Source: Myxococcales bacterium (lineage in GTDB: Bacteria; Myxococcota_A; Polyangia; Polyangiales; Polyangiaceae). Taken from it: DNA of 46,267 nt. This document shows positions 30,460-38,620 of the stretch, one piece after another; positions within the stretch are counted from its first letter, which is position 1; each line of letters opens with the position of its first letter. A model generated the notes under the pieces. It searched no databases. It was not told the DNA's origin and saw only the letters and a list, made by a program, of their open reading frames with translations. Location of the stretch: NCBI GenBank assembly GCA_020430845.1, contig JAGQJA010000110.1:1-46267 (forward strand), in the 5' to 3' direction. The position numbers and the translations under genes are program-made.

Positions 30460-30921
30460 ATGCCGAACGACGCGCCCCGGGTGCGCCACGCCCGCTCCGC
30501 CTTTCGCATCGAGTACTCGGTCGAGGTGACCATCGACGCGCCGCCCGCGCGCGTGTGGGAGCTGCTGACCGACGCAACCCGCTTCACGCGCTGGAACTCG
30601 ACGGTCTCGTCGGTCGAGGGCACGATCGCGGAGGGCGAGACGATCGCCCTCAAGGCCAAGGTCGCGCCCGATCGCACCTTCAAGCTCAAGGTCGGCGACG
30701 TGGTGCCCGCGAAGGCGATGACGTGGAGCGACGGCATGGCGCCGTTCTTCCGCGGCGTGCGCACGTTCGCGCTCGACCCCGACGGCGAGGCCACGCGCTT
30801 CTCGATGACCGAGGTGTTCAAGGGGATCATGCTGCCGATGATCGCCGGCTCGCTCCCCGACTTCGGGCCGGTGTTCGAGCAGTACGCGCGCGACCTCAAG
30901 AGCGCGTCCGAAGCGGCCTGA
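30460..30921 (+). CDS. SRPBCC (START/polyketide-cyclase-like) family protein
   Basis: 153 residues. The fold starts with IEYSVEVTIDAPPARVWELL and TRFTRWNS, typical of SRPBCC helix-grip proteins, and continues ETIALKAKVAPDRTFKLKV to the C-terminal helix FEQYARDLK. Such proteins bind hydrophobic ligands in a deep cavity; the ligand here is unknown. The ATG follows an operator-like palindrome almost directly, so the transcript may be leaderless and repressor-controlled. Convergent with the GH13-radical SAM gene. Confidence 0.85.
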   Translation: MPNDAPRVRHARSAFRIEYSVEVTIDAPPARVWELLTDATRFTRWNSTVSSVEGTIAEGETIALKAKVAPDRTFKLKVGDVVPAKAMTWSDGMAPFFRGVRTFALDPDGEATRFSMTEVFKGIMLPMIAGSLPDFGPVFEQYARDLKSASEAA

Positions 30922-30934
30922 CCCAAGCCCGCCT

Positions 30935-33900
30935 TCAGTCGACGCACACCACCGGACCCGACGGGCCGCACAGGCGCTCGAGCATCGAACGGTCGCGCTC
31001 GGCGACCGCCGCCGGAGAGCGCCACACCGACGACATGGGCTCGAGCGTGAGGTTGCCGAGCACCGGCCCGTGGAAGTCGCCGATGCGCACGTCGCCGTTG
31101 GGCTCGATGAACGCGCTGTCCCAGGGCGCGCGGCACGGGTGCAGGCCCACGCCGTTGGCGCGCTCGTCGGCCTCGAGGAACGCGCGTGTGTCGTCGTCGA
31201 GCCTGCACCGCCACACGGACCGCGGCGCGGTGTGATCGACCACCACGAGCCCCAGCTCGCGCCCCCGACGGGCCGCCGCGTCGACCTGCGCCCGCACCTC
31301 GGGCCGCGACATCGACACGAGGGAGCGCTCTGCGAAGGCCGTCGCGCCCACGCCCTCTTCGAGCTTGACCCAGTCGACGCCCAGCTCGCGCGCGAGCTCC
31401 ATGAGGCGCACGAGCTCGTGCAGGTTCTGACGGAGCACCACGAACGACAGCCCGAGCGTGAGCGGCGCGCGCTCCCCTTCGCGCCAGCGCACGACGTCGC
31501 GGACGTTGGCGATCACCCGCTCGAAGCTGCCTCCGGCGCGGATCTCGTCGTTGGTCCGCCCGCTCGCGCCGTCGAGAGACACGCTGACGCTCGTGACGCC
31601 GAGCCCCGTGAGGCGCGCGGCCGCCGCCGGACCGAAGAGCATCCCGTTGGTGAGCAGGTGCGCGGCGTACGGCTCCCCTCCCCTGGCCTCGCGGATGGCC
31701 GCGAGCAGCGCGTCGAATGCGCGCGCCGTGAGCGACTCACCGCCGTGCACGAAGGCGAAGTACTCGGCGAACGCGAGCGACGGGCGGAGCGCGTCGAGCA
31801 CGGCCGGCGTCATCGTCCGAGCCTCACCCGACGCCGTGCGCTCGGGCGCGCGCGTGATGCAGTGCCGGCACGCGAGGTTGCAGCGCTCGGTGACCGAGAA
31901 GTAGAGCCGCGTCGGCAGCGCGCTCCCCACGGGCTCGCACGCCCGGAGCTCTTGGTCGACGAGCGCGAGGTTGCGCTTGGCGGCGAGCGTCGGCATCGAT
32001 CGCCCGAGCGCGCTCTCGCGTCGGAGCAGCGCGTAGCCGGGGCCGGTGAACGACACTGTGACGTCCGCCACGCGCGCGGCGTGCGAGAGCGCGATCGACG
32101 TCGCGCACGGAAGCTCGTCGTCGTCGAGCGACACCGTGAGCGGCTCCGCGCCGAAGCACACCACGACGTCGACCACCTCTCCCTCGTGCGCGCGCCGGAG
32201 CACGGCGAGCGAGGCGTCTGCGTGCAGCACCTCGAGGCGACCGCGACGCAGGGCCGGCGACGACGCGCGCGCCGACAAGAGCGCGCGAAGAGACGCGCGC
32301 AGCCCCTCGTCTCGCTCGTGCGCGACGAACGGCATGGGTCGACGGTCGGGCCACACGTCCTCGGGCGTGGCCTCGGCGCCCATCGAGCGGAGCCCGATCT
32401 CCTCGCCGTAGAGGAGCATCGGCACGCCCGGGAGCGCCACCATGAGCGCGTACGCCGGGACGAGCCGGGCCTCGGTGCCTGCGCGCGCGGCGAGCGTCGC
32501 GAGGCGAGGGTGATCGTGCGTCGAGAGCACGCGCGCTGCCGTCGCGCGCGCATCGCCGCCCCGGCAGAGATCACTCTCGGCGATCGCGTCGAGCGCGCGC
32601 GCGAGGCTCGCCTCGGGCCTCACCACGAGGTCGGTCACCGTCTCGTGGAAGGCGAAGTCGTACGACGCGTCGCACACGCCCTCGGCGCGCCACCTCCACG
32701 CGTGCCGTGGCACGATCTCGCCGAGCACGATCCCGTCGCGCGCGACCTCGAGGAACGCGTCGCGGACGGCCCGCCCGAGCTCGAAAGGCACCTCCGCGGC
32801 CATGTCGAGGCGCAAACCCGACGCGCCGAGCTCCGCCCACCGGCGCGCCGCGCGCACCATCAGATCGCGCACGGCCGGGTGATCGAGGTCAAGCAGCGGG
32901 GCGTCGGTGCGCTTACCGTAGTGCGCGAGCTCGCCGTCGCGCCACTGGAACCAACCGGCGTACGCCGACGCCCGGCCGCGCGCGCGCACGTCCTCGTACG
33001 GCTCGAAGCCCCGCCCCGCGTGCGCAAAGGACAGGTCTTGGATGATCCGCATCCCGCGCGCGCGAGCCGCCTCGGCGAGCCGACGGTACGCCTCCTCGCC
33101 GCCGAGCTCGGGGTCGACCGCGAGCGGCTCGACGAGATCGTAGCGGTGCGCGCTCGCGCCCACGTGGACGGGCGTGAGATAGAGCGCGGTCGCGCCCAGG
33201 TCGGCGAGCTCGCCGAGGCTCCGCCGGACGCCGTCGAGGTGACCGCCCGCGCGCACGCCGCGCCCGGGATCACGCTCCCAGTCGGGCCGATCCTCCGCGG
33301 GACGGAAGCGGTCGACGAAGACCGTGTAGATACATGCGTCCTGCCACCACGCCGGAGGCGACCGGGTCGGCCGCGGCGCGTCGCACACGAACGGGGCCCC
33401 GGTGCCCGCGTGGAGCTCGAGCTCGAGGCCGCGGGACGACGACGGCAGCTCGCAGACGAAGAAGGTGTGCTCGTCCTCGTCGAAGGCCGGCCGCGCCGCG
33501 ACCTCGGACCACGGCGCGTCGGACGCCTCTCGGTAACGCACGCGGAGCGACGCGGGAACGCCGGGTGAGCGGCGCACGCCGGCGAGCACGCGCACGCCCC
33601 CGTCGACCAGCGGCTCGAGCCAGGGCGCCGCGGGGGCGAAGAGGAGGGGCTCGGGCGCGCCGCCGACGACGAGCAGCGAGTTGACGTTGCCGCCGGCCGA
33701 CCGCGTGCGCGCGAGCGACGGGTCGAGCTGCCACGTCGCGCCGTCGAAGAGCAGCTTGGTCTGGTAGACGCCCGGGGGCAGGTCGACGTCGCGCGCGAAC
33801 GCGCCCTCTTCTGTCGCGCGCAGCTCGAGGCCACGAAGCCAGTCGACGAGCTCTCCCATCACCTGCACGCGCGACGTGCCGCGCGGTGCGCGCACCGACA

Positions 33901-33949
33901 GCTCGACGGTCTCTCTCACGACGCCCTCGGCCGGCGCCGCCTTGCGCAT
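30935..33949 (-). CDS. GH13 alpha-amylase-type enzyme fused to a radical SAM/SPASM-like domain
   Basis: 1004 residues in one open frame. 11-97: AMPK/CBM48-like glycogen-binding fold (LPPGVYQTKLLFDG). 107-192: second beta domain. 200-560: GH13 barrel (IYTVFVDRFRP, GHLDGVRRSL), with nucleophile Asp382 in GLRLDMA, acid Glu411 in VLGEI, Asp479 in STHDHPR, His310, and LLYGEEIGL. 560-645: C-terminal beta domain. 680-1004: radical SAM domain with the [4Fe-4S] motif CNLACRHC (Cys690, 694, 697) and GGE at 736-738; the tail has Cys915, 939, 994 and 1002 and FIEPNGDVRIGDF, a SPASM/Twitch-like region lacking the usual PC after GDV. An internal ATG at codon 652 has no visible ribosome site, so separate translation is unlikely. 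I know of no such fusion; the joint function is unknown. The start may instead be a GTG at 33967. Confidence 0.88.
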   Translation of the reverse strand: MRKAAPAEGVVRETVELSVRAPRGTSRVQVMGELVDWLRGLELRATEEGAFARDVDLPPGVYQTKLLFDGATWQLDPSLARTRSAGGNVNSLLVVGGAPEPLLFAPAAPWLEPLVDGGVRVLAGVRRSPGVPASLRVRYREASDAPWSEVAARPAFDEDEHTFFVCELPSSSRGLELELHAGTGAPFVCDAPRPTRSPPAWWQDACIYTVFVDRFRPAEDRPDWERDPGRGVRAGGHLDGVRRSLGELADLGATALYLTPVHVGASAHRYDLVEPLAVDPELGGEEAYRRLAEAARARGMRIIQDLSFAHAGRGFEPYEDVRARGRASAYAGWFQWRDGELAHYGKRTDAPLLDLDHPAVRDLMVRAARRWAELGASGLRLDMAAEVPFELGRAVRDAFLEVARDGIVLGEIVPRHAWRWRAEGVCDASYDFAFHETVTDLVVRPEASLARALDAIAESDLCRGGDARATAARVLSTHDHPRLATLAARAGTEARLVPAYALMVALPGVPMLLYGEEIGLRSMGAEATPEDVWPDRRPMPFVAHERDEGLRASLRALLSARASSPALRRGRLEVLHADASLAVLRRAHEGEVVDVVVCFGAEPLTVSLDDDELPCATSIALSHAARVADVTVSFTGPGYALLRRESALGRSMPTLAAKRNLALVDQELRACEPVGSALPTRLYFSVTERCNLACRHCITRAPERTASGEARTMTPAVLDALRPSLAFAEYFAFVHGGESLTARAFDALLAAIREARGGEPYAAHLLTNGMLFGPAAAARLTGLGVTSVSVSLDGASGRTNDEIRAGGSFERVIANVRDVVRWREGERAPLTLGLSFVVLRQNLHELVRLMELARELGVDWVKLEEGVGATAFAERSLVSMSRPEVRAQVDAAARRGRELGLVVVDHTAPRSVWRCRLDDDTRAFLEADERANGVGLHPCRAPWDSAFIEPNGDVRIGDFHGPVLGNLTLEPMSSVWRSPAAVAERDRSMLERLCGPSGPVVCVD

Positions 33950-34853
33950 GGCTGATCCATCGGTCACGCTCTGCCGCCTAGTGTACGTCTCTACCGATCT
34001 CCACGGGCACACGCTTTACTCGGACGGGCGCGCAACCCCGCAGGAGTACGTCGAATTCCGCCGTGCGCGCGGCATGAAGGCGATCGCCATCGCAGACCAC
34101 GACCTCATGGCGGGCGTGCGCGCGGGCGCGGCCGCCGCGGCCGAAGCGCAGATGTTGTTCATCCCCGCGATGGAGATCACCGCGCACCTTCATTACGGCG
34201 GCGAGCGCGAAGAGCAGTTCCACGTGCTCGCGTACTACCCACACTCCGTCCTCCAGGGAGTCGAGCTCGAGCACAAGGCGCTCTACCGACGCGGGCTCGC
34301 CGTACAAGAGCGCTGGAAGGCCTTCGTGCTGTCGTGGATCGACTCGCGACCGCTCGACGAGCAAGCGGCGCTCGGTCGCGACGAGCTCGAGGGGCTCTCG
34401 CCGGCCGACTTCCCTGCGCTCCAGTCGACGATCCTGCGCATCATCGACAAGAAGCGCGAGCTGTTCGAGCCGTTCCGCGACCACCACGTCCGGTTCTGGT
34501 CGTCGGCGGGGTCCAACGGCGATCTCTTCGGCTGGACGCCCGAAGAGGTGATCGAGGCCATCCGCGACGACGGCGCGGTCGACATCGTCGCGCACCCCGC
34601 CCGCTACCGCGACAAGGAGCGCACGCTCGCCGTGCTCGAGCTCGCCAAGGGCGTCGAGGTGTACACGTCGCGCCACAAGGCCGAGGTCGCGGCGTTCTAC
34701 CGTGATTTTGCGGAGTCGCGGCGCAAGTACTGGACGTCGTCGTCGGACGATCACCAGAACGCGCGCTACATCGACCCGCCGTGCGGCACGCCCGCGCGCA
34801 CGCTCGAGCGCATCTGCCGGCGTACGTTCGACCTGTCGGCGCTCGTCGCCTGA
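33948..34853 (+). CDS. PHP-domain phosphoesterase
   Basis: 301 residues from ATG (GTG at 33981 would give 290 and fits the family equally well). PHP motifs: DLHGHTLYSDG, IADHDLMAGV, the Glu in MEIT, VDIVAHPAR and SSSDDHQ. Together they make a metal-dependent phosphoesterase site as in the PolX/HisK family; the substrate is unknown. The ATG overlaps the opposite-strand start of the GH13-radical SAM gene by two bases, so one start must lie elsewhere or the shared promoter is extremely compact. Convergent with the GIDE-domain gene (7 bases between stops). Confidence 0.87.
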   Translation: MADPSVTLCRLVYVSTDLHGHTLYSDGRATPQEYVEFRRARGMKAIAIADHDLMAGVRAGAAAAAEAQMLFIPAMEITAHLHYGGEREEQFHVLAYYPHSVLQGVELEHKALYRRGLAVQERWKAFVLSWIDSRPLDEQAALGRDELEGLSPADFPALQSTILRIIDKKRELFEPFRDHHVRFWSSAGSNGDLFGWTPEEVIEAIRDDGAVDIVAHPARYRDKERTLAVLELAKGVEVYTSRHKAEVAAFYRDFAESRRKYWTSSSDDHQNARYIDPPCGTPARTLERICRRTFDLSALVA

Positions 34854-34860
34854 CGCCGCG

Positions 34861-36408
34861 TCAGAAGCTCGCGGCCCAGGCCCACGTCGCGAGCACCGCG
34901 ACGACGGCCACGGCGGCGCCCACCGCGTGTCGAAAACGCGCGGCCGCCTCGCGCTCGAGCGCGTCGACGAGCCCCCGCTCGGTGCCCGCGTACACGAGCA
35001 GCGGCGCGTGCGAGCCGCCCAGCGTCGGCGATCCCGCCACCGTGCGGTAGCCGAGCTCCGAAGGAGAGAGCGTCATCCCGCTCACCTCGCCGAGCACGTA
35101 GAGCTCTTCGCCGGGGCGGATCACCTTCTCGGTCACCTCGAAGCGCTGGTGTCCGGGCTGCGGAGTGAGCTCGACGCGGCGTGCTCCCAGGCCGGGCACG
35201 CTCGACACCCAGCTCTGCTCGTGGGTCGAGAGGTCGAGGACGGCGTGGCGCAGGTCGAGCGTCCCGTGCCCGCTCTCGTCCGAGATGCGGACGGCGTCGC
35301 GGTTGCGCGTGACGACGCGATCGACGGTCGTGGTCGACTTGCCTTCGCGGATCGTCTCGCGGACCGTGGCCTCGGCGAAGACGACCGGCTCGGTCACGAC
35401 GATGGGCGCGGGCGCGGCGTCGTGCTCCGCGATCGCCGCGGCGCGCACGTGCAGCTCGACCGTGCCCTGCGCGCGCGACAGCAAGCTGCGTGGGGTCGAG
35501 AGCACCGGGAGCGTGGCCGCGCGGAGCTGCCTCGCGCGCGCGAGGGCGACGAGGCCCGAGATGGCCCACGCCGCCATGGCCACCGACGCGAGCACGTAGC
35601 CGCCGCGCCCCCAAGACCACGTGCTCTCGGGGGCCCCGTTGCGCGCGAGCAGGTGCCACATGAGGAACGCGACGGGCGCGAGCCCGATGCCGAGGAGCAG
35701 AGGCCAGCGCTTCTCGACCTTCTCCCCCGCCCGCGTGGCCAGCGCGTCGGCGAGCAGCTCGGTCCGAGGCAGCGCCACGAGGGCGATGATCCATGCGAGG
35801 AGGGCCGCGCCGCCGAAGCGATACATGAGCAGGTTGGCCGCGTCGTCGAGCGCCGGCTGCGCGCTCGGGCCGACGACGACGGCGTACGGCGTGTCCGTCG
35901 CGCACGCGTCGAGGCTGTCGGCGCCCGCACTGCCCGTGACGCAGCCGTCGACCGTGATCTCGTCACCGTCGGCCACGCAACGCTCGAGCGCGCGGTACGG
36001 ATACGACGGACGCCACGCGCTCCCCCAGTCGTGCGACGTCCCGGTGCTCCACGCCGAGCTCGGGGGCGACGTCGGCGTCATCTCGAAGCGCGGCGTCAGG
36101 AGCAGCGGCGAGGGTCTCGACGCGAGCTCGATCTGCCCTTGGGCGCGGGTCTCGACGCGCACCGTCCGCCAGCACTTGCTCTTGCCGCAGCTCTCGTAGT
36201 GCTGGAGCGTCAGGACGCAGAGCGGCGGGTGGCTCGCGCGGATCGCGCGCACCTTGCCGGTCTCGCGCACCCTGTCGCCGCCGACCGGCCCGCGCAGCCG
36301 CTGCAGCGGCGCGTGTGGATCGAAGAACGCCGAGGCCGCGCTGAAGAGGCAGCCGGCGAGGCCGAGCGCCGCCGCGCACGCGATGAGCAGCCGGAGCCAC
36401 CCAGCCAT
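34861..36408 (-). CDS. Membrane protein with a GIDE-type domain
   Basis: 515 residues; a GTG nine codons upstream is an alternative start. A signal-like N-terminus has GLAGC (Cys20), which may be lipidated. A Cys-containing soluble region (40-190) precedes three hydrophobic helices (~188-300). The C-terminal part VRISDESGHGTLDLRHA ... FEVTEKVIRPGEELYVLGEV ... LLVYAGTERGLVDALERE and a final helix match the GIDE domain known from mitochondrial E3 ligase MUL1 and from bacterial homologues; no RING domain is present. Function unknown. Confidence 0.75.
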   Translation of the reverse strand: MAGWLRLLIACAAALGLAGCLFSAASAFFDPHAPLQRLRGPVGGDRVRETGKVRAIRASHPPLCVLTLQHYESCGKSKCWRTVRVETRAQGQIELASRPSPLLLTPRFEMTPTSPPSSAWSTGTSHDWGSAWRPSYPYRALERCVADGDEITVDGCVTGSAGADSLDACATDTPYAVVVGPSAQPALDDAANLLMYRFGGAALLAWIIALVALPRTELLADALATRAGEKVEKRWPLLLGIGLAPVAFLMWHLLARNGAPESTWSWGRGGYVLASVAMAAWAISGLVALARARQLRAATLPVLSTPRSLLSRAQGTVELHVRAAAIAEHDAAPAPIVVTEPVVFAEATVRETIREGKSTTTVDRVVTRNRDAVRISDESGHGTLDLRHAVLDLSTHEQSWVSSVPGLGARRVELTPQPGHQRFEVTEKVIRPGEELYVLGEVSGMTLSPSELGYRTVAGSPTLGGSHAPLLVYAGTERGLVDALEREAAARFRHAVGAAVAVVAVLATWAWAASF

Positions 36409-36602: not shown

Positions 36603-37727
36603 ATGGTGAAGATTCGAGTGACGCGCGGTGTTCGAGCAGGCTTTGCGGGGGCGTCCGGCCTCCTGGCGCTCTCGGGCGGTGTGGCGGCGTGCGCGGCGCC
36701 CGGGCAGGGCGAGGACGTCGGCGAGACCGACGAGGCGCTCACCATCCAGGACCCCGGCACCGGCGTCCTCAAGCTTGGCTGGGTCTACGGCTCGCCGCGC
36801 GGCCAGACCTTCGTCGCGCACAACTCGACGGACGAGTACGTGCGCGCCCGCGAGCAGATGAGCTTCGAGCTCTCCGCGAGCTACCTCTGGTCGCAGCTCT
36901 ACCCGAACCGCACCATGCCGAACGACGTCGACCGCTTGAAGAAGCTCTCGGCCGAGGTGAAGGTCCACTACGTCAAGGGCGGCGCGGTCTACGCGTCGAC
37001 GCAGGTCGCGACCAAGACCTGGACCGGCACGAGCGCCTGGAGCCTCTTGGCCACGACGGGCACGTTCGTCGTGAGCCGCCGCGCGCAGGGCATGCGCTTC
37101 GAGGTCGAGATCTCGGACGCGGACGAGCCCGCCAACAAGGCCGTCGTCGGTCAGGCGGACTTCATGGAAGTGAGCGTCATCGGCGGCACGCTGCCGACCA
37201 AGACGCTGCTCTTCGACAACCTCGGCGGCGCGATGCGCAGCCGCGTGCTCGAGGGCGGGCTCCCCGTGCGCGGCGCCGACCTCGACGTCGCGTACACCGA
37301 CTGGCGCGCGGCCACGGTCGTCGACAGCTCGGCGATCGATCGGCAGATCGGCACCGCCACGAGCTACGGGCGCTTCGGTCCGGTGGAGATCCCGATCTTC
37401 GGCGAGCTCCAGTACGAGATCACCTACGGCTACGCGGTCGACGGCGCGTGGCACGCCGAGGCGCCGCTCACGGCGAACGCCGCCTCACGCCTGCTCTCGA
37501 GCCGCGGGCGCACGGCCTACGAGGCCAAGCTCGCGCTGCCCGAGGACGCGCAGAAGCTCGAGCTGTTCTTCCACGTGAAGACGTTCCTCAAGGTCGACTA
37601 CTCGCGCGCGGGCGACGTCCGGTGGCGCAAATACCAGGACGGCGAGCGCATCCTCGTCCGCGAGAAGTGGGACAACGAGAACGGCGTCGTGTTCGACAAC
37701 TACGACTTCGTCACCGAGCAGCGCTGA
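36603..37727 (+). CDS. Putative lipoprotein, myxobacterial type, unknown function
   Basis: 374 residues; GAGGAG nine bases upstream fixes the start. The signal peptide ends GGVAAC (Cys30), followed by a short acidic spacer with GETDEALT, then two regions of beta strands with many aromatic residues (LGWVYGSPRGQTFVAHN, QLYPNRTMPNDVDRLKKL, RSRVLEGGLPVRGADLDVAY). No enzyme motif was found. It may belong to DUF6209, recalled only tentatively. A strong palindromic site precedes it, so regulated expression is likely. Confidence 0.72.
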   Translation: MVKIRVTRGVRAGFAGASGLLALSGGVAACAAPGQGEDVGETDEALTIQDPGTGVLKLGWVYGSPRGQTFVAHNSTDEYVRAREQMSFELSASYLWSQLYPNRTMPNDVDRLKKLSAEVKVHYVKGGAVYASTQVATKTWTGTSAWSLLATTGTFVVSRRAQGMRFEVEISDADEPANKAVVGQADFMEVSVIGGTLPTKTLLFDNLGGAMRSRVLEGGLPVRGADLDVAYTDWRAATVVDSSAIDRQIGTATSYGRFGPVEIPIFGELQYEITYGYAVDGAWHAEAPLTANAASRLLSSRGRTAYEAKLALPEDAQKLELFFHVKTFLKVDYSRAGDVRWRKYQDGERILVREKWDNENGVVFDNYDFVTEQR

Positions 37728-38534: not shown

Positions 38535-38620
38535 TGGTACCGAAGGAGGGACTCGAACCCTCACGGGGGGGACCCCGGCGGATTTTGAATCCGCTGCGTC
38601 TGCCATTCCGCCACTTCGGC
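38535..38620 (-). tRNA. tRNA-Leu (anticodon CAA)
   Basis: 86 bases with encoded CCA. Acceptor GCCGAAG pairs with CTTCGGT (first pair a G-U wobble), the anticodon arm is GCGGA-TTCAAAA-TCCGC with CAA at 38587-38585, the long GC-rich variable arm marks class II, and the T arm is GAGGG-TTCGAGT-CCCTC. It decodes UUG, which is rare in this GC-rich genome. Confidence 0.95.

Follow-up and report, generated by a model that had tools for sequence, protein, structure and literature searches.

Whether a glycoside hydrolase of family GH13 and a radical SAM enzyme can form one protein, and what the two would do together, is the question raised by a gene in a 46,267 nt stretch of DNA (the window; G+C content 71%) from a Myxococcales draft genome of 8.56 Mb in 806 contigs. 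The gene occupies positions 30935..33949 on the minus strand and belongs to the lineage called type A below. A preliminary description, made from the letters of the window alone, had reported a continuous frame of 1004 codons that joins a GH13 part to a radical SAM/SPASM-like part. The frame was confirmed: it begins with the ATG at 33949, runs for 1004 codons with no internal stop and stays open upstream to 34012. The presence of both parts in it was also borne out, with four Pfam domains found in order in the 1004 aa product (P0001), and the overall architecture is CBM48, CBM34-like, GH13 and radical SAM/twitch.

Domain organisation of the fusion protein

Pfam matched AMPK1_CBM at residues 23-95, Alpha-amylase at 211-522 (E 2e-30), Radical_SAM at 685-852 (E 3e-15; 57 bits against a cut-off of 29.5) and, weakly, SPASM at 939-985 (E 3e-5). 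The predicted structure of the protein was confident (mean pLDDT 90, pTM 0.84). All the parts described here are on the minus strand. The N-terminus, previously noted as resembling a glycogen-binding domain, is an AMPK-beta/CBM48-type domain (aa 13-95, 33665..33913) recognised by the AMPK1_CBM match and by its nearly invariant binding residues. It is followed by an amylase N-terminal, CBM34-like beta domain (aa 99-190, 33380..33655), which was identified by superposition on neopullulanase and from relative L085, matched by the Pfam Alpha-amylase_N profile with a score just below the cut-off. The GH13 catalytic barrel and C domain (aa 195-646, 32012..33367) were delimited using Pfam, alignment and superposition, and alignment of the junction defined a linker (aa 647-680, 31910..32011). 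Pfam and residue conservation place the radical SAM core at aa 681-905 (31235..31909), with the motifs CNLACRHC at 690-697 and GGE at 736-738. The remainder (aa 906-1004, 30938..31234), assigned from Pfam, the junction alignment and cysteine conservation, is a truncated SPASM-like (twitch-like) auxiliary-cluster domain carrying C915, C939, C994 and C1002.

Residues 99-646 superpose on complete neopullulanases, N-domain included (Z 44, 3.4 A over 530 residues, 26% identity), and the list of structural matches for the whole fusion was filled by GH13 chains (VIA). In the alignment D382, E411 and D479 correspond to D325, E354 and D421 of the neopullulanase TVA II, which we take to be its catalytic residues. 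These three acids had been picked out before, together with CNLACRHC, GGE and four further cysteines, and all are present as stated. The NCBIfam radical SAM models nearest to the fusion are those of maturases and cofactor enzymes, with scores far below their cut-offs, and the homology of this domain does not point to sugar chemistry. Pfam detected no PqqD or RRE domain in the protein at E<1, a search that may overlook distant RREs. The fusion shows no evident signal peptide and should therefore be cytosolic.

Distribution and conservation

The earlier description had proposed a search for the same domain order in other genomes. Whole-genome searches found one-frame homologues with 36-58% identity in approximately 29 genomes from seven families of Myxococcota. 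They include the genus and family of the source genome (f1), two families of the same order (f5 and f8), three elsewhere in the class (f14, f15 and f73), and a single genome outside the class (G326, family f31). A scan of genome contigs used exact patterns and matched close relatives only, so that members outside Myxococcota may exist. The fusion was absent from the plasmid collection, where the matches were to GH13-only proteins.

Among 22 aligned full fusions, and in every sequence that covers the region, the GH13 residues D305, H310, R380, D382, E411, H478 and D479 are invariant. As the catalytic residues are all among them, the GH13 barrel itself is probably catalytically active. The position before the first conserved histidine of GH13 enzymes is usually Asn; here (position 309) it is Ala, Ser, Thr, Val or Leu, a trait of the family. 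In the radical SAM part C690, C694, C697, G736, G737, E738, C915 and C939 are invariant in the same 22 proteins, with CxxxCxxC and GGE unchanged in every sequence that covers them, and C1002 is missing once among the relatives (L080). The CBM residues K65, W73 and N90, presumably equivalent to K126, W133 and N150 of AMPK-beta judged from their spacing, are each retained in 33 of the 34 sequences compared, and none is missing from the six stand-alone radical SAM halves described below.

Three observations that would have spoken against a genuine fusion had been named: a stop or frameshift at the junction, homologues that are always split, and loss of the iron-sulfur cysteines. The homologues contain no stop at the junction and have retained the cysteines, and they are split in only one derived lineage, apart from a break within the radical SAM part in genome G328. 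There the type-B fusion (L088:8543-11745) is in two overlapping frames, with the break near residue 775, and this is either an assembly frameshift or a decaying gene.

Two lineages of the fusion

Trees were built separately from the N-terminal, GH13 and radical SAM parts. All recovered the same two groups, A, which contains the window protein, and B, with supports of 99/95, 100/100 and 100/98. Because the three trees agree, the fusion must predate the split between A and B, and its parts have been passed on together. One genome (G033) encodes both types complete, and another (G100) has type B complete but type A only in fragments.

An origin of the window gene as an artefact or pseudogene, in which two genes became joined by chance read-through or misassembly, might be suspected given the 806 contigs of its draft genome. 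Fusions in one frame in many genomes, at the identities given above and including the single-contig assemblies G049 and G042, exclude chance or a local assembly error, and together with the congruent domain trees they reduce the probability of this explanation to practically nil. Judged from its sequences, the fusion is an old protein family under selection.

Cysteines of the auxiliary domain

It had been noted that the cysteine found after the GDV stretch in most SPASM domains is missing from the window protein, so that only one auxiliary cluster may form. The relevant position (957) is not a cysteine in the window protein or in any of the 31 sequences checked. The full SPASM cysteine set, including Cx9-15Gx4C, was likewise absent from these 31 sequences, which have four auxiliary cysteines only. 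C915, C939 and C1002 are common to both types, and the fourth is C994 in type A (14/14) and C913 in type B (17/17), never both. Each lineage therefore has its own set of four (C915, C939, C994 and C1002 in A; C913, C915, C939 and C1002 in B), which supports a single auxiliary cluster. The different location of the fourth cysteine is suggestive of one four-cysteine cluster, with the change possibly a single event on the tree. A twitch domain is a truncated SPASM domain with one auxiliary cluster, which has four cysteine ligands in BtrN and three in MoaA (PMC9012708). The domain of the fusion agrees with the twitch type, a truncated SPASM with the ligand number for one cluster, in its cysteine count only.

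Predicted partner lipoproteins

When neighbourhoods of approximately 20 kb were compared, there was one constant companion of the fusion, a predicted lipoprotein that belongs to a different family in each lineage. The preliminary description had not noted these conserved partner genes. The type-A partner in the window (36603..37727, plus strand) is 374 aa long, starts with MVKIRV, has the lipobox cysteine at position 30 and contains two predicted beta-sandwich domains. It is 2.7 kb from the fusion gene; elsewhere it is often 19-231 bp away in divergent orientation or 49 bp upstream. The type-B partner is usually directly upstream of the fusion on the same strand. It matches CBM_21 (E 1.5e-12 in L086), with a similar motif pattern in its N-terminal half, and its nearest solved chains are glycogen-targeting subunits of PP1, 2eef (PP1 subunit 3B) being the closest.

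No Pfam match, to CBM_21 or any other family, was found for the type-A partner in the window, and in one relative the only match was DUF6209 (E 0.005). Fold searches with Foldseek and VIA-align returned generic Ig-like matches only and no clear fold. Since the type-B partner has a CBM_21 domain and both families share a WDNxxG...NY tail, we infer that the type-A partner may also bind glucan. Profile comparison between the two families gave only a weak match. Several type-A partners (L075:5418-7220, L077, L081, L082, L083 and L110) have an extra C-terminal domain of approximately 200 residues, containing LDWYG and WMLDVDMDC, for which Pfam gave no match.

The co-occurrence of partner and fusion is close to perfect. 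All but one of the type-A genomes of the family (17 of 18) have the type-A partner, which was found in none of the 90 others; the exception, G004, has a completeness of 72% and a contig of 3.3 kb. In the class sample the figures were 17/17 and 0/273. In the sample of 290 genomes the type-B partner was present in 17 of 19 genomes with a fused type B and in one other draft genome (G543). Hypergeometric probabilities for co-occurrence in the family were 7e-19 for A and 5e-6 for B, values that are uncorrected and ignore relatedness.

The stretch preceding the lipobox is conserved in each family, M(I/V)K(V/I)RV in A partners (36603-36690 in the window) and TFGEAxE in B partners, which is unusual and atypical of plain lipoprotein signals. 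These stretches, together with the constancy of the lipoprotein gene as a neighbour and its nearly perfect co-occurrence, could indicate that the fusion is a protein maturase. Its radical SAM domain would modify the cytosolic form of the co-encoded lipoprotein ahead of export, much as anaerobic sulfatase maturases treat sulfatases, and its CBM and GH13 domains would bring client and glucan together. Many SPASM enzymes do act on peptides (PMC9012708), and one type-B locus carries a second radical SAM/SPASM protein in its operon. However, the two partner families have no recognisable leader motif in common and Pfam detected no PqqD or RRE domain in the fusion at E<1. Together with the distribution of the partners in the split lineage (see below), this makes such a role, the foremost alternative to modification of the glucan, on the whole unlikely.

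PHP hydrolase and other neighbouring genes

Divergent from the fusion gene in the window is a gene for a 290 aa PHP-family hydrolase (33981..34853, plus strand), identified by a Pfam PHP match and considered a conserved neighbour from adjacency, which is frequent, and co-occurrence. It was found in 13 of the 108 genomes of the family, each a type-A genome. Among type-B loci, several form tight operons in the order lipoprotein, PHP and fusion, with junctions that overlap or are a few bases long. In G049 (C1:5084242-5085534) a second PHP gene lies by a type-A partner that is shorter and interrupted by one TAG, in a location with no fusion.

Downstream of one type-B fusion (L078:11557-13604), genes for a further CBM21-like protein, which lacks a signal sequence, and for a 404-aa radical SAM/SPASM protein form one apparent operon. 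A PqqD domain considered for the downstream protein was not confirmed by Pfam and it is called radical SAM/SPASM only. The window by itself does not lend itself to a RiPP interpretation: it has no obvious cluster of modifying enzymes and Pfam gives no RRE. Two further genes in the window, for a membrane protein with a weak GIDE match (34861-36408) and an SRPBCC-like protein (30460-30921), were rejected as parts of the system since neither is a conserved neighbour. A tRNA-Leu (caa) gene is at 38535-38620 on the minus strand. The source genome encodes a glycogen phosphorylase, and its branching-enzyme-like matches fall below the family cut-off.

A natural split in one genus

All six genomes of genus g14 (10.8-13.4 Mb) have two genes located far apart instead of the fusion, which was found in none of them. 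The first encodes a stand-alone CBM and GH13 protein of approximately 620-660 aa that groups in type A. The second, of type B, encodes approximately 540 aa in which the AMPK-type CBM and amylase N-domain are joined directly to the radical SAM part, and Pfam still detects AMPK1_CBM and remnants of Alpha-amylase_N there. The most parsimonious history is that A lost its radical part and B its barrel. Values of dN/dS (about 0.2-0.36) show that purifying selection acts on both halves. As both persist at distant loci, covalent linkage is dispensable and both activities have been kept.

The radical half has dropped the barrel and kept the AMPK-type CBM and amylase N-domain. It follows that the binding domains do the targeting and that the radical half still needs its capacity to bind glucan. 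The preliminary description had suggested that the GH13 part might localise the radical enzyme to glycogen. That the radical enzyme works at glycogen remains supported, and it is the barrel as anchor that must be given up in favour of the binding domains.

The split also bears on the alternatives. The type-B partner was found in 0/6 of these genomes, where the radical half of type B survives after loss of its barrel, so the lipoprotein goes with the barrel rather than with the radical domain. The type-A lipoprotein gene adjoins the GH13 half and not the radical half. Neither arrangement is expected of a maturase acting on the lipoprotein. The presence of the halves at distant loci would be compatible with two independent steps whose fusion serves co-regulation or channelling, in which GH13 feeds carbon from glycogen and some unrelated metabolite or cofactor is made or matured by the radical SAM domain. 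Against this, the free radical SAM half has kept the CBM and amylase N-domain with glucan-binding residues intact, and we consider the proposal improbable. Even less credible is a non-catalytic role for the radical SAM part as a redox or SAM sensor that regulates GH13. An auxiliary domain smaller than SPASM would suit a sensor, but CxxxCxxC, GGE and the shared auxiliary cysteines are invariant or nearly so, and the stand-alone radical SAM halves persist under selection.

A possible role in glycogen modification

We favour, with a probability of roughly one half, a bifunctional enzyme bound to glycogen, with the glucan as the most likely target of its radical domain. This reading is supported by the invariant residues, retention of the CBM, co-occurrence of GH13 and lipoprotein, the CBM_21 domain, the tight type-B operons, the BtrN-like four cysteines, the glycogen phosphorylase and the purifying selection. 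The binding domains would dock the cytosolic protein on intracellular alpha-glucan, and the GH13 barrel would cut or transfer alpha-glucosidic bonds to give maltooligosaccharides or chain ends. In the next step the radical SAM/twitch domain would abstract hydrogen from a glucosyl unit, the outcome most likely being a BtrN-like two-electron oxidation or an epimerisation in which the auxiliary cluster accepts the electron. The PHP enzyme would remove a phosphate, and the lipoprotein, located in the cell envelope, would bind the altered glucan. In g14 the two halves may act in trans on the same glucan. The outer lipoprotein and the cytosolic enzyme could share a glucan only if this is exported, or is bound by the lipoprotein before export.

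Radical SAM enzymes are known to act on peptides, nucleotides, cofactors and small aminocyclitols or aminoglycosides. Tentatively, at somewhat less than even odds, the fusion may be the first to act on a storage polysaccharide, trimming glycogen and oxidising or epimerising glucosyl units in a product recognised by a dedicated lipoprotein. Action on the glucan would open C-H chemistry on a polysaccharide and be of a new kind; action on the lipoprotein would mean that carbohydrate-binding surface proteins have a maturation system of a new type. The family and its partner genes point to unexplored radical chemistry on, or beside, glycogen. The split lineage provides natural single-activity proteins, and the A and B pairs with their own partners are a built-in comparison of specificity.

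Comparison with known systems

The individual domains are known. No description of a GH13/radical SAM fusion was found in the open-access literature searched, and the combination, the reciprocal fission and the partner genes appear to be undescribed. The closest relatives of the GH13 part are in the neopullulanase, cyclomaltodextrinase and maltogenic amylase group (GH13_20; TVA II, 1jib), where N-domain, barrel and C domain superpose and the catalytic residues are kept. The CBM34 N-domain and GH13 fold of this group are both present, with superposition from residue 99, but the fifth conserved region, MPKLN in GH13_20, reads APLLDLDHP. Compared with these enzymes the fusion adds an AMPK-type CBM in front and the radical SAM/twitch module behind.

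Like the twitch-type enzymes BtrN and MoaA, the fusion has a radical SAM core and one probable auxiliary cluster, and its four cysteines resemble the four-cysteine auxiliary set of BtrN, an aminocyclitol dehydrogenase (PMC9012708), a likeness of cysteine count. It differs from both in being joined to a glycosidase and glucan-binding domains. The weak SPASM match recalls anaerobic sulfatase maturase, PqqE and the mycofactocin enzyme MftC, and the exported partner protein encoded next door recalls the first of these. In contrast to the SPASM maturases, the fusion family lacks the cysteine after GDV and has four auxiliary cysteines only, and Pfam detected no RRE in the window protein. The AMPK-beta/CBM48 and CBM21 glycogen-targeting modules are represented by AMPK1_CBM in the enzyme and by CBM_21 in the type-B partner, but here they are joined to, or in an operon with, a radical SAM enzyme, and the partner is a predicted lipoprotein.
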